Positions 26,360 to 31,371 of a DNA stretch of 64,000 nt are shown here, one piece after another. Made by a program: the position numbers and the translations under genes. The DNA is taken from the NCBI GenBank assembly GCA_016200045.1, contig JACQFN010000018.1:1-64000 (forward strand), in the 5' to 3' direction. How positions within the stretch are numbered: position 1 is the stretch's first letter; every line of letters starts with the position of its first letter. Origin of the DNA: Nitrososphaerota archaeon. GTDB taxonomy: Archaea; Thermoproteota; Nitrososphaeria; Nitrososphaerales; Gagatemarchaeaceae. Below the pieces are notes generated by a model. The model was not told where the DNA came from, did no database searches, and worked only from the letters and a program-made list of their open reading frames with translations.

Positions 26360-26911
26360 TCACCCCTCCTTCGATGGAAGCCGGCTTCCGAACGACCTTA
26401 ACTTTTTCCAGTGGCTCCCCTTCCAGTAATGCCGGCCGCATCCCGAGCATCTGAAGAACTTCCGATGCCTCGCGAATACTCTCGGAGGTACCCTTCCGAC
26501 GACTTCCGCCCTCCCTACAACCTGAAGTCCCCCGCCGCACAGCGAACAGAGAGGGACCCCCCTCGTTATCCTGAGTCCCAATGGCCCTGCCGCGAGCAAG
26601 ACAGACGATAGCCTGCGGCCGTCGCTCGGCCCTCTAACGAGGACGGCGGGGATGTGCCTGGCGCGTGCGGTCTCTGCGAGAGACCTGTCTGCGGTCAGGA
26701 TTACCCGCCTCTCACGTCTTGCGACCTCTATGATCCCCTGGTCACCGCCCAGCCGGTAGTAGGAGGCATCTAGGCCGAGAATCCTGAGCTTCCGGGCGAA
26801 CGAACCCAACATGGCGTCCACGACGAACCTCGGATCGGCGTCTAAGTCGGGGGCGCCTGGGAAATTCTGTATGGTCAGGCCGCTATCTCGTCGTTTCAGC
26901 GTTCTTGACAA
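26360..26911 (-). CDS. Mut7-C (PIN-like) RNase/zinc-ribbon protein
   Basis: A 183-residue Mut7-C family protein. FVVDAMLGSFARKLRILGLD and VILTADRSLAETA form the PIN-like nuclease part with acidic residues. The C-terminal zinc ribbon has CSLCGG and CSGCGRHYWKGSHW. Likely an RNase; the target is unknown. TTG 26911 is used, which overlaps the TyrRS end by 29 bases; the first 30 residues are unlike the family, so GTG 26821 or another nearby initiation site is possible. Confidence 0.82.
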   Translation of the reverse strand: MSRTLKRRDSGLTIQNFPGAPDLDADPRFVVDAMLGSFARKLRILGLDASYYRLGGDQGIIEVARRERRVILTADRSLAETARARHIPAVLVRGPSDGRRLSSVLLAAGPLGLRITRGVPLCSLCGGGLQVVGRAEVVGRVPPRVFARHRKFFRCSGCGRHYWKGSHWKKLRSFGSRLPSKEG

Positions 26912-27971
26912 CTTGGTAGAGCTTCTTTGCAGCTGGGTCCCTCTCGAAGTGCTCCCTGATGGGGGAGATTATCCTGTCCAGCGATTCCGCAACCCCCTTC
27001 TTCAGGTCAGCCGGGTGGAGCGAGCCGTCCCGGAACGCCCTTGCCAGCTCGTCGTAGGACGAAAACTCCGTGTTGCCTCCGTACTTCGCGGCCCTTTCTA
27101 TCCCGAGAGATTTCGCCTTCCTGAATATGATGTAGCGACAGTACTCGATGAGTACGTTCCCCTCGAGCACCTTGGGGGGGCAGTACGCGGAGTTGATCTT
27201 GGAAAGAATCCTGTCACTGCTGTCGTGCACGAAAATCGAGGTCTCCGGTTTGCTCTTGCTCATCTTGCTGGATATCTGGCGGTCGATCTCCCCGCTCTCG
27301 TCGTACCCTTCGGGGTCCTTGTTCCCCTGGAGGCCTATCAGCATGTGATGGTGGACGGCAACCGGCTTCTTCCACTTCATCTTCTCCGCGACCTCCCTCG
27401 CGAGGATGTTCGCCCGCCTCTGGTCGAGGCCGAGCTGGCAGATGTCGACGTCGAGCCAGAAAATGTCAGCGACCTGCATCATCGGGTAGAGGAGCTGCGC
27501 GGTCTGGATGAGGTCCCTGGAGGTCCTTCCCATGATCGTGATTGCCCGCTGGGTCCTGGCGAGGGTAGAGTTCTGGGCGACAGCGATGACCTTCTTCCAG
27601 TACTCCTCGTCGGCGGCTGCTTCACTCGTCCACAGGACCTCAACCTTGCTCATGTCCACTCCTGCTGCCTTCCATACTTCGACGAAGTACTTCCCCACCT
27701 GCTGGATCATTTCAAGGTCCCCGCCCATCTTGTTGTTTACCCAGCCGAACCAGTCGGCGATCCAGAGCTTCATTCTCACACCGGCCTTTAGCAGGTCGTC
27801 AACGAGGATTGGCCTGAGCACACCGAAGGGCAGGTGCGCGAGCCCGCTCGGTTCGAACCCGTCATACGCAGTTGGATGGTCGTTCGTTTCGAGGAGGGTC
27901 CTGAGCTCTCTCTCGGTTATGATCTCCTCTCCCACGCCCTTGATGTACTGGAGCCGGTCTTCTAGGTCCAC
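26883..27971 (-). CDS. tyrS: Tyrosyl-tRNA synthetase (archaeal type)
   Basis: A 362-residue class I synthetase. It has AYDGFEPSGLAHLPFG (HIGH-equivalent), a MQVADIFWLDVDICQLGLDQR region typical of TyrRS and the KMSKSKP loop. It charges tRNA-Tyr, whose intron-rich gene lies about 3 kb away. A longer open frame begins at 28115 but runs into the next gene; GTG 27971 (VDLEDRLQYIKG) gives a normal N-terminus and lies about 27 bases after a TATA-like GGTTTTATCG. Confidence 0.92.
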   Translation of the reverse strand: MDLEDRLQYIKGVGEEIITERELRTLLETNDHPTAYDGFEPSGLAHLPFGVLRPILVDDLLKAGVRMKLWIADWFGWVNNKMGGDLEMIQQVGKYFVEVWKAAGVDMSKVEVLWTSEAAADEEYWKKVIAVAQNSTLARTQRAITIMGRTSRDLIQTAQLLYPMMQVADIFWLDVDICQLGLDQRRANILAREVAEKMKWKKPVAVHHHMLIGLQGNKDPEGYDESGEIDRQISSKMSKSKPETSIFVHDSSDRILSKINSAYCPPKVLEGNVLIEYCRYIIFRKAKSLGIERAAKYGGNTEFSSYDELARAFRDGSLHPADLKKGVAESLDRIISPIREHFERDPAAKKLYQVVKNAETTR

Positions 27972-28008
27972 GGCTGAGGCCTCCCGCGCCCTCGGCCGAT
28001 AAAACCGT

Positions 28009-28452
28009 TCAAGTCTGGCGTCTCTGGAGGGAAAGGGCAGCGACTGCGAGCCCGAAGGTGAAGACTGCAAGGCCCTGATGCGCTGCAACGAGAAGTGCTT
28101 CTTCCTGTCCGACAATCACCGCCCCTCCGAGGAGCACCTGGGCGAACAGCAAGATGGAAGCGGCGATGAGAGTCCGCCTAACTCCTGTGGAAGCTGCCGG
28201 GTCCCTAAGGTACAGAGCCGTGGTGACGAAAAGTAGGAGCGTAGACAGCGCAGCGAGTATCCTGTGCATGTACTCGGCTACAGGGCCCAACTCGAGCGGA
28301 GGGAAGGCACCTCCCAGGCAGCCAGGCCAGTCCCTTGGGAGTTCCGTCCCGCACTTGTCCCCGAAGCCGGCGACGGTCACGTAGGCACCGACTACTATCG
28401 CCATGAAGATAGACGCTATCGTGAGGAACAGCAGAATCTGCTTTCCCTGCAA
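28009..28452 (-). CDS. ctaA: Half-size heme A synthase (CtaA/COX15-like)
   Basis: A 147-residue protein with four membrane helices, matching one half of bacterial CtaA. It has VVGAYVTVAGFGDKCG with a second Cys in WPGCLG (a disulfide-type pair on the outer side), the heme-ligand region EYMHRILA and a second His in VAAHQGLAVF. Heme A synthase oxidises heme O to heme A. Short four-helix forms occur in archaea and could act as homodimers, so this is not a fragment. TTG start with TATA-like CCTTAAAGG about 28 bases upstream. With ctaB (30170) it indicates an A-type heme-copper oxidase, encoded outside the window. Confidence 0.85.
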   Translation of the reverse strand: MQGKQILLFLTIASIFMAIVVGAYVTVAGFGDKCGTELPRDWPGCLGGAFPPLELGPVAEYMHRILAALSTLLLFVTTALYLRDPAASTGVRRTLIAASILLFAQVLLGGAVIVGQEEALLVAAHQGLAVFTFGLAVAALSLQRRQT

Positions 28453-28494
28453 TACTTTTGGGCCGTCTCGGTTGACCTTTAAGGAGTTCTAGGG

Positions 28495-28824
28495 CTACCT
28501 GACCAAACCGTCAATCTTGGTCTTGAATACGGCAGACGGGACTGCTCCGATCACGATGTCCTCTACTTTCCCTTTGGCGAAAAGCATCACGGTCGGGATG
28601 CTCATTATTCCGAACTGGGCGGCCAGTTCCTGGTTGTCATCCGTGTCGATCTTCACGAACTTCACCTTTCCGTCGTACTCCTTGGAGAGTTGATCCATTA
28701 TCGGGGTGATAACCCTGCAGGGTCCGCACCAGTCGGCATAGAAGTCGACCACGACCGGCTTTTCCGATTTCACTACCTCTTCCTGGAAGCTCGTTCCGCT
28801 TATCTTCTGGACTGTCTCACTCAT
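28495..28824 (-). CDS. trxA: Thioredoxin
   Basis: A 109-residue thioredoxin with the redox motif W32-C33-G-P-C36, the buried VVDFYADW strand and cis-proline segment IPTVMLF. It is a general dithiol reductant. It lies between ctaA and ThiI on the same strand; thiol supply for heme A synthase or ThiI is a plausible context-based role. Confidence 0.95.
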   Translation of the reverse strand: MSETVQKISGTSFQEEVVKSEKPVVVDFYADWCGPCRVITPIMDQLSKEYDGKVKFVKIDTDDNQELAAQFGIMSIPTVMLFAKGKVEDIVIGAVPSAVFKTKIDGLVR

Positions 28825-28861
28825 TCACTGTCATTATCGACGGTGGAACTTCCCGCTTATA

Positions 28862-30121
28862 TTATTGTCTCACGTTCGAGGCATGGAGCGGTTCCCCCGG
28901 CTCTCCGGGGATGACTCCTGCGCTGACGCCCATTTCCTTGAGCGGAGAAGCCTTGAGCGAACCGGTAGCAGGGTCGAACGAGACAAGGGTGGCGGCGTCG
29001 ACAGATTCTCTCGCAAGCTGATCGAAGGCGAGACGCTCCGCGAATTGGGAAATCAATTCTCTCTTCGCCCGAGTCTTTGGATGCCTTGTTACGATCGCGC
29101 AGCAGTCTTTGTACTCCTCGAGCGAGACTTCGTATGTCCCGATCTTCCTGGCGAGCTGGATGACTTCCTCCTTGTCGTATGCCAGGAGGGGCCTGAGGAT
29201 CGGGAGCGAGGAGCCCTCGTCGAATACCCCGAGGTTCCAGACGGTCTGGGAGGCTGCCTGGGCCAGGCAGTCCCCGGTCGAAATGGCGGAGGCGCCGAAC
29301 TTCGCGGCGAGCGACTCCGCGGTCACACGCATGAAGCGTCTGAACAAGGACGGCTCCAGGTCTCCTGGGACCCCCGTAGTCGCTATCTGATACTGCGCAA
29401 ACGGGACCAGGACCACCGTGCTCTTGCCAGAGTAGTCTGAGAGCCGCCTGACCTCCTTGATGACCTTGCTCTTGATGGCGTATTCCGGGGTCGGCGCGAG
29501 GTAGAAATGAAGGTAGACGGGTCTGCATCCTCGCTTCATCATGAGCCAAGCTGCAACCGGGGAGTCTATCCCCCCCGAGAATAGGTGGAGCACCCTGCCG
29601 GAGGTGCCCACGGGAAGGCCACCCGGGCCCCTTGACTTCGAGGAATAGACCATGGCCATTCCCTTCAACACGTCGACGTTGACGGCTAGATCCGGCTCCG
29701 AGAGGCTTACCGTCCTTCCCGTCCTCGACACGACGTCCCCCCCGAGCCTTGTCGCCAGTTCCTGGGAGCCGATTGGAAAGGATTTGTCGGTCCTCCGGGC
29801 GGTTATCCTGAACGTCCCTCCGGGATGAGACTCCGCGCGCGCCACAACCTCCTCCCTGATGCTGTCGTATTCGGAGGGGACGATCGAGGCACGGGCGAAC
29901 CATGCCACCCCGAACACCTTGGCGATTCGTTCCTCCGCGTCTGACTCATCCCCTTCGAAATCCAAGACTAGCCTTCCTTCGCTTTCATGGACAGCGACCT
30001 TTCCTACCTGCGCCAGCGCCCTTCTCAGGTTGTATCTGAGCAGGCGCGCGAACACGGGCCTGTTCTTCCCTTTCAGCGCGATTTCCGAATAGTGCACGAC
30101 ATACGTTGACTTCATCTTCAT
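28862..30121 (-). CDS. thiI: tRNA 4-thiouridine synthetase ThiI (archaeal form)
   Basis: A 419-residue protein with a ferredoxin-like/THUMP N-terminus (HYSEIALKGKNR, then FRITARRTDKSFP and LGGDVVSRTG), an intact PP-loop SGGIDSP (182-188), STGDCLAQAASQT and EYKDCCAIV near residue 335. It lacks the C-terminal rhodanese domain of the E. coli enzyme, as most archaeal forms do. It likely makes s4U8 in tRNA using the CC pair. A second, degenerate copy lies at 23622. ATG start with TATA-like GCATTTATCA about 26 bases upstream. Confidence 0.93.
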   Translation of the reverse strand: MKMKSTYVVHYSEIALKGKNRPVFARLLRYNLRRALAQVGKVAVHESEGRLVLDFEGDESDAEERIAKVFGVAWFARASIVPSEYDSIREEVVARAESHPGGTFRITARRTDKSFPIGSQELATRLGGDVVSRTGRTVSLSEPDLAVNVDVLKGMAMVYSSKSRGPGGLPVGTSGRVLHLFSGGIDSPVAAWLMMKRGCRPVYLHFYLAPTPEYAIKSKVIKEVRRLSDYSGKSTVVLVPFAQYQIATTGVPGDLEPSLFRRFMRVTAESLAAKFGASAISTGDCLAQAASQTVWNLGVFDEGSSLPILRPLLAYDKEEVIQLARKIGTYEVSLEEYKDCCAIVTRHPKTRAKRELISQFAERLAFDQLARESVDAATLVSFDPATGSLKASPLKEMGVSAGVIPGEPGEPLHASNVRQ

Positions 30122-30169
30122 TCTCCCTTCAATCGAGGGCGGTGATAAATGCTGCCCGTCCTGCGGAGT

Positions 30170-31057
30170 CTACACGAGGACCGAGACCATCGCGGCGATG
30201 AAGATTACGGCGAGGTAAGGGCTGGAGAACTTGAACGCCAGCCAGGCGTTGTCCTTGGTAGGAGACCTGAGAAGCTTGATGTTGGTCAAGAGAAGCGCAC
30301 CGTCGAATACGACGGCAACCCCCAGGTAGAGGAGAAGACCAACCCCGCTCAGAAAGAACGAGAACATCAGGCTCACGGGTATCAGAAGCAGGGTGTTCGC
30401 GACGATGTAGCGGGAGGCAGCCCTGGGGCCAACTAGGGATGGGAGCATGGGGATGCCCACGGCCGAATAGTCCTCGTCTGTGATTACGGCAAGGCTCCAG
30501 AAGTGGGTCGGGGTCCAGACGAAGACAAGGGCGGCAAGGATCCATGCGATTATTGAGCTCTCCAGCGTCACTGCATACCAGCCCGCCAAGGCCGCGCAGC
30601 TCCCTGCGAACCCGCCGAGGACTATGTTCCAACTAGTCCTGGGTTTCAGCCAGATCGTGTAGACTGGGACGTAGACGAAGGCCCCGAGCGCGATGAAGGC
30701 TGTCGAAACCAGGTTGACGGTGAGGAATGCGGTCCCGACCCCGAGGAAAAGCAGCCCGAACCCCACGAAGAGCGCGTGTGACGCAGGGACGATTCGGTGC
30801 GAGGGAAGGGGCCTGCTCCGAGTCCTCCTCATTTGAGAATCGATTCCGATCTCCAGGTAGCTGTTGAGCGCGAGCGCCCCGGCCGACGCCAAGGCGCCCC
30901 CGAGGAGGACCCCGATCAAGACGCCTGTGTCAGGGACGGTCTTGTGGGCGACCAAGTTCGTCGAGACCACAGCCGACCCGAGCGCCACCATCACGAGAAG
31001 CGGGACTATCTTGGGCTTCGTAAGCGCGACGTAGTCGGAAAAGGTAGCGCGGACCAT
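30170..31057 (-). CDS. ctaB: Protoheme IX farnesyltransferase (heme O synthase)
   Basis: A 295-residue polytopic UbiA-family prenyltransferase with NSYLEIGIDSQMRRTRSRPL (N/D-x-M-x-RTRxRP), YTIWLKPRTSWNIVLGG, and DEDYSAVGIPMLP, specific for CtaB/COX10. It adds farnesyl to heme b, giving heme O for CtaA. TATA-like CAAAATACG lies about 29 bases before the ATG. Confidence 0.94.
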   Translation of the reverse strand: MVRATFSDYVALTKPKIVPLLVMVALGSAVVSTNLVAHKTVPDTGVLIGVLLGGALASAGALALNSYLEIGIDSQMRRTRSRPLPSHRIVPASHALFVGFGLLFLGVGTAFLTVNLVSTAFIALGAFVYVPVYTIWLKPRTSWNIVLGGFAGSCAALAGWYAVTLESSIIAWILAALVFVWTPTHFWSLAVITDEDYSAVGIPMLPSLVGPRAASRYIVANTLLLIPVSLMFSFFLSGVGLLLYLGVAVVFDGALLLTNIKLLRSPTKDNAWLAFKFSSPYLAVIFIAAMVSVLV

Positions 31058-31110: not shown

Positions 31111-31121
31111 CCCTTAAGAAA
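31111..31121 (+). promoter_or_regulatory. TATA-like promoter of the tRNA-Tyr gene
   Basis: CCCTTAAGAAA lies about 28 bases before the first base of the mature tRNA. Confidence 0.5.
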
Positions 31122-31166
31122 TCTCAGGGGGTCGCGCGTTCGTCCCGCGGTAGCTCAGCCTGGTAG

Positions 31167-31182
31167 AACCAGAGGTGCCAAA
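31167..31182 (+). other. tRNA-Tyr intron 1, in the D-stem
   Basis: Sixteen bases between tRNA positions 22 and 23. UGGU (31161-31164) pairs with GCCA (31177-31180) as the 4-bp central helix. Three-base bulges AG/A and AA/A hold the cut sites, and an ACC-AGA-GGT hairpin closes the intron. Removal restores D-stem GAGC. Confidence 0.85.
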
Positions 31183-31197
31183 AGCTTCCGGCTGTAG

Positions 31198-31242
31198 AGG
31201 TCGGCCATCGGCTGACCCGTCCAGCCTATTCAGGCAACAGTG
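31198..31242 (+). other. tRNA-Tyr intron 2, anticodon loop 37/38
   Basis: Forty-five bases at the canonical archaeal position. CUGU (31192-31195) pairs with ACAG (31237-31240), giving bulges AG/A and TG/A. The intron also carries an 8-bp hairpin, 31199-31206 with 31210-31217. Confidence 0.9.
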
Positions 31243-31264
31243 ACCGGAGTGTCGTCGGCTCGAA

Positions 31265-31287
31265 AGGCGCTTGAATGCGCCCGGAGG
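31265..31287 (+). other. tRNA-Tyr intron 3, T-loop 59/60
   Basis: Twenty-three bases. A GGCGC/GCGCC hairpin (31266-31270 with 31277-31281) closes it; central helix CTCG with CGGA has three pairs and one C-A mismatch, so the motif is relaxed and the boundaries could shift by a base. Confidence 0.75.
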
Positions 31288-31371
31288 TCCGACCCGCGGG
31301 ACTTCAGAGGCAAGGGTTATTCCCCTCGGGGGTCAGCAACCCATATTGAGGGAGAAGTTCACCCATCTCTC

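Follow-up and report, generated by a model that had tools for sequence, protein, structure and literature searches.

A tRNA-Tyr gene with three predicted introns in a soil thaumarchaeon, and a candidate pseudouridine guide module in its canonical intron

The window, a stretch of 64,000 nucleotides, carries on its forward strand (31144-31301) a tRNA-Tyr(GUA) gene for which a cloverleaf is obtained only once three segments have been excised. The question raised by this locus is whether all three segments are spliced introns, whether some of them stay in an unusual tRNA, or whether the gene has decayed. The original prediction had proposed introns at 31167-31182, 31198-31242 and 31265-31287, and every coordinate checks (Table 1). 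We put at about 95% the probability that tRNA-Tyr(GUA), whose sole copy found is this one, is made in this soil thaumarchaeon from a precursor of ~158 nt containing three bulge-helix-bulge (BHB) introns. The host probably belongs to Gagatemarchaeaceae or stands beside that family.

Table 1. Features of the tRNA-Tyr locus, with positions in the window.
Feature	Position	Strand	Details
Tyrosyl-tRNA synthetase (TyrRS)	26883-28115	-	NCBIfam NF006330 tyrosine--tRNA ligase, E 2.6e-115, above cut-off
Box A (TATA)-like element CTTAAGAAAT	31113-31122	+	22-31 nt 5′ of the tRNA; putative promoter element
Exon 1	31144-31166	+	acceptor 5′ strand, U8-A9, D-stem 5′ strand, D-loop, G22
Intron 1 (22/23, D-stem), 16 nt	31167-31182	+	splice helix UGGU 31161-31164 / GCCA 31177-31180
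Exon 2	31183-31197	+	A23-G37, anticodon GUA 31194-31196
Intron 2 (canonical 37/38), 45 nt	31198-31242	+	splice helix CUGU 31192-31195 / ACAG 31237-31240, 3-nt bulges
CAGCC in intron 2	31222-31226	+	complementary to exon nt 30-34 (GGCUG), beside U35; candidate 3′ guide element
ACA in intron 2	31237-31239	+	15 nt from CAGCC start (31222); within splice helix here; putative box ACA
Exon 3	31243-31264	+	A38-A59: anticodon-stem 3′ strand, variable loop, T-stem 5′ strand, T-loop CUCGAA
Intron 3 (59/60, T-loop), 23 nt	31265-31287	+	splice helix CUCG 31259-31262 / CGGA 31282-31285, one mismatch
Exon 4	31288-31301	+	U60, T-stem and acceptor 3′ strands, A73

In the spliced molecule the acceptor stem is formed by CCCGCGG (31144-31150) and CCGCGGG (31294-31300), with A at the discriminator position (31301). 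The D-stem is GCUC/G-AGC (hyphens mark the junctions), the anticodon stem UCCGG/CCGGA closes the loop CUGUAG-A, and the T-stem GUCGG/CCGAC closes the loop CUCGAA-U, whose C54 is unusual. The identity features of tRNA-Tyr are all present (GUA anticodon, archaeal C1-G72 pair, A73), and folding of the spliced sequence gave a cloverleaf. The motif AAGAAAT, similar to the box A-like element, lies upstream of tRNA-Tyr in many relatives.

The exon boundaries were also determined with a solver whose only input was the cloverleaf rules and the bulge-helix-bulge rule. It returned exactly the three proposed introns, with a score of 51.3; the top score among 150 shuffles of the interior that kept the dinucleotides was 37.2. 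A second shuffle, confined to the sequences of the D and T introns, attained the real score in 11 of 150 trials, so that the single sequence gives these two introns weak BHB support and it is the comparison with relatives that decides. Apparent introns of 10 nt proposed by the solver in tRNA-Leu were discarded, as they correspond to the long variable arms. Neither ARAGORN nor Rfam (gathering threshold or E<=10) reported anything at the tRNA-Tyr gene, presumably because of the introns; interruptions of this kind explain why standard tools miss such tRNAs.

The central helices were as originally described, four base pairs with 3-nt bulges at the D-stem and 37/38 sites and one mismatch at the T-loop site: UGGU/GCCA pairs at 4/4 positions (one G-U), CUGU/ACAG at 4/4 and CUCG/CGGA at 3/4, with a C54.A mismatch. 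Folded alone, the 37/38 region adopted an exact BHB. The D region folded in isolation formed a competing hairpin (UGGU-AGA-ACCA) instead, which counts against the D intron. The D intron may slide by 1 nt (A31167 = A31183) with no change in the product. The T intron, which contains an internal hairpin (GGCGC/GCGCC), could in this genome also be placed 1 nt earlier, CUC then pairing with GAG in the fold; the register given in Table 1 is favoured by locus L039 and by L055, which lacks the intron (CUCGAAU).

Matches to the gene were sought in 150 relatives, and a pattern scan of named genomes added further loci. Within the genus and the family of this organism almost every genome had a match, the matched contigs including Candidatus Gagatemarchaeum stordalenia (L118) and other Thaumarchaeota MAGs, and the mature sequence was essentially the same throughout. 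Among 78 distinct complete tRNA-Tyr genes, all of which have the canonical 37/38 intron, 30 carry both the D and the T insertion, nine the D insertion alone, six the T insertion alone and 33 neither. The genes without an insertion display the joined exons that were predicted. L067 lacks both introns, and L069 and L072 lack the D intron; these three loci read GGTAGAGC or GGCAGAGC at the D junction. Seven loci without the T intron (L046, L049, L055, L056, L064, L065 and L068) have the predicted T junction, their T-loop being CUCAAAU or CUCGAAU, so the unusual C54 occurs there as well. L038 and L046 share the D intron and differ in the T intron. The splice helices are conserved in register: the D helix has on average 3.95 of 4 pairs (n=39; slid controls <=2.41), the canonical helix 3.96 (n=78; <=2.06) and the T helix 3.33 (n=30; <=1.63). 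In the T helix R57 and its intron partner covary (A57-U, G57-C).

These comparisons bear directly on the two other ways of explaining the locus. If the canonical intron alone were real and the D and T segments were retained expansions of an unusual tRNA, the frequency with which shuffles reached the real score, the mismatch in the T helix and the alternative hairpin of the D region would all be accounted for. Retention would, however, disrupt both the D-stem and the T-loop; in ten relatives one or both segments are missing, with the exons joined precisely where predicted; and the helix register is conserved far above the slid controls. All this makes retention highly improbable. A decayed or invaded pseudogene, the real gene lying elsewhere or in an assembly gap, would agree with C54, with the imperfect T helix, with the silence of ARAGORN and Rfam, and with an assembly that is 96.9% complete. 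Against this, stem pairing after splicing is perfect, the assembly contains no second tRNA-Tyr(GUA), 31144-31301 being the single gene found, and the strong matches in nearly all relatives of the family, with their essentially unchanged mature sequence, are accompanied by compensating changes in the splice helix. Decay is thus largely refuted, and the chance left to it is very slim.

Removal of the three introns would proceed by the usual archaeal geometry: the 3′ end of each intron pairs over 4 bp with the exon directly 5′ of it, leaving two 3-nt bulges, an alpha2beta2 endonuclease would cut each bulge behind its second base, and the exons would be joined by a tRNA ligase. The assembly has a single PF01974 gene (E 3.2e-30; TIGR00324 above cut-off), the endonuclease alpha subunit, which over its full length is 42% identical to its closest solved relative, Aeropyrum pernix EndA (PDB 3p1z_B, E 8.6e-42). 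An insertion in an alpha loop, LGIPKPKDFEFDAPL, aligns with LDVEKPRGADFEGPL of A. pernix, and this loop is not found in beta; the loop lysine is present, as are the Y, H and K residues. We take the insertion to be the crenarchaea-specific loop with Lys44. The original prediction had called for a heteromeric endonuclease of broad specificity; the crenarchaeal-type alpha subunit was found, whereas beta was not found in this assembly. RfcL, which adjoins beta in genome G016, was likewise not found here. Most well-assembled relatives have two PF01974 genes (alpha and beta), and the joint absence of beta and its neighbour, both present in relatives, probably reflects an assembly gap. The enzyme appears to be of the crenarchaeal broad-specificity alpha2beta2 type, with a beta subunit that this organism presumably encodes.

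Three introns in one tRNA gene have precedents in Thermoproteales, namely Pyrobaculum calidifontis tRNA-Glu and P. islandicum tRNA-Pro (PMC4390854). These genes resemble the present one in having three BHB introns at canonical and noncanonical sites and a heteromeric endonuclease; they differ in isotype and lineage, their hosts being hyperthermophiles and ours a soil organism, and here the intron sites are conserved across a family with single losses or gains. The host is not one of the Thermoproteales, from which multi-intron tRNAs were originally said to be mainly known, but a thaumarchaeon: multiple noncanonical tRNA introns, of the same type and in the same larger group, are on record for some Thaumarchaeota species in the accessible parts of PMC8450103 and PMC3218864. 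Those parts count introns, contain no description of this tRNA-Tyr that we found, and stop at a maximum of three, against the four predicted in some relatives of this organism. The three-intron tRNA-Tyr is a known kind of gene in a lineage where little of the kind has been described. Heavily interrupted tRNA genes are accordingly no speciality of hyperthermophilic Thermoproteales, since archaea that are common in soil and sea also inherit them stably, and the relatives with and without a given intron offer natural pairs for studying tRNA intron turnover.

Four introns were predicted in the tRNA-Tyr of seven genomes that belong to three further families of the order (G080, G087, G094 and G110; G048 and G074; G049), among whose named counterparts are ALOHA_A2.5_79, UBA223 and ATL. 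The loci are L078, L186, L180, L188, L225 and L253-L255 in family f14, L081 and L246 in f4, and L260 in f5; the count leaves out L071 (G035), L248 and L259, which gave no trustworthy parse, and L251, L252 and L256-L258, which are unparsed. The introns occupy the D-stem or anticodon stem, 37/38, 53/54 and 59/60, nearly all helices pair at 4/4 positions, and the mature sequence is essentially that of the other relatives. The tRNAscan-SE 2.0 paper (PMC8450103) puts the maximum for archaea at three introns in one tRNA gene. We found no paper on a tRNA with four introns in the open-licence literature, which is not proof of priority; the four introns predicted in these marine and other relatives exceed those of any tRNA gene in the open-licence literature searched. 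Three introns at other sites (37/38 + 53/54 + 59/60, or 22/23 + 37/38 + about 44/45) were seen in the tRNA-Tyr genes L138 and L222 of Bathyarchaeota and in L150, L152 and L210.

The 3′ half of the 37/38 intron is conserved far beyond the needs of splicing. A module reaching from CAGCC to ACA (14-16 nt) recurs throughout the phylum, and its conservation does not wholly depend on splicing. Watson-Crick runs of at least 5 from nt 34, outside the splice strand, occurred in 67% of the de-replicated introns and in 15% of shuffles; CAGC with ACA at 14-16 nt was present in 36/52 against 4.5%, and in 16/52 against 1.7% with the ACA outside the splice helix, although the introns are homologous and these counts are not independent samples. 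Those 16 introns come from several lineages, Nitrosocaldus and Bathyarchaeota among them; their ACA lies outside the helix because a different strand serves for splicing. An earlier pairing test of CAGCC that allowed G-U was dropped, as hairpin letters match by chance, and was replaced by the Watson-Crick runs. In L305 the exon change G31->A is matched by CAGCC->UAGUC in the intron, and in L317 and L281, whose stems differ, the pairing is lengthened to 8 bp and 7 bp, respectively.

This pattern raises the possibility that, before it is spliced out, the intron also directs the formation of pseudouridine 35 as a minimal H/ACA-like guide acting in cis. CAGCC would pair with nt 30-34 of its own precursor and place U35 for Cbf5, the box ACA 14-16 nt downstream serving as a ruler; the precursor would then refold into the BHB form and be spliced. 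A distance of 14-16 nt from pocket to ACA is that of archaeal H/ACA guides (PMC7991803, PMC4652768), the present one being 15 nt, and the candidate guide is complementary to the flank of the target. No K-turn or K-loop, separate 5′ guide arm or lower stem was seen in this intron, which is therefore classed as H/ACA-like only and not as a member of the H/ACA family. Folding also placed CAGCC in a small hairpin, which speaks against a guide. By eye, K-turn-like GA/UGA surrounds the stem in several lineages, in the guide's favour; the ACA is missing from such lineages, which weighs the other way.

A homologue of TruD/aPus7 (PF01142) is encoded by the organism's own genome and in its order, which makes a guide unneeded there; most of the phylum has one too. 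The idea that a lack of TruD makes a guide necessary was accordingly discarded for this genome. No PF01142 match was found in the f22 genomes listed, nor in G165, G193 and G265 of f30, G165 being a single contig and 99% complete; the f22 and f30 genomes without a match keep the CAGCC-ACA module, which argues for a guide. On balance the guide function of this intron, which would add to the splicing model, is rather less probable than its absence, and the same tentative standing applies to the wider reading, in which the canonical tRNA-Tyr intron is a cis H/ACA-like guide in a large part of the Nitrososphaeria/Bathyarchaeia/Brockarchaeota side of the phylum and several relatives, marine and other, carry four introns in tRNA-Tyr.

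Both elements of the proposal have counterparts. An archaeal tRNA-Trp intron carries a box C/D guide (Clouet d'Orval 2001, as cited in PMC11408192), a precedent for a canonical intron by which the tRNA it interrupts is modified; there it is methylation that is guided, whereas the candidate here is an H/ACA-like pseudouridine guide proposed from sequence. In Sulfolobales a trans-acting H/ACA sRNA makes pseudouridine 35 of pre-tRNA-Tyr (Muller 2009, as cited in PMC7991803 and PMC4652768); target and RNA guidance are alike, but that guide is a separate sRNA and the one proposed here a cis element borne by the intron. If correct, the proposal would give a reason for the phylum-wide retention of the intron and supply a pseudouridine counterpart of the tRNA-Trp intron guide. 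What goes beyond the known kind of gene are the relatives with four introns and the conserved module of the middle intron.

In the own genome many tRNA genes have one or two introns, which, like the nearby TyrRS gene, speaks for the splicing model; tRNA-Tyr is the only clear three-intron case. Two segments are removed in the parses of nine other tRNA genes (L017, L023, L030, L031, L235, L237, L238, L240 and L243); in tRNA-Ser some of the two-segment parses may represent the variable arm. A K-turn-like GA/UGA in the stem before CAGCC/UAGCU, resembling an archaeal H/ACA hairpin, with no ACA at the usual spacing, was noted in L281, L289-L295, L297 and L298. The TyrRS gene lies 3 kb from the tRNA-Tyr gene and belongs to a row of genes beside it (26883-31057): TyrRS, COX15-like, thioredoxin-like, ThiI-like and heme o synthase (CtaB), of which TyrRS and CtaB were tested. 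In G016 the beta/RfcL cluster is adjoined by an ORF (L113:7400-9637) that by eye resembles a Cdc6/Orc-type ATPase with an intein-like insertion.
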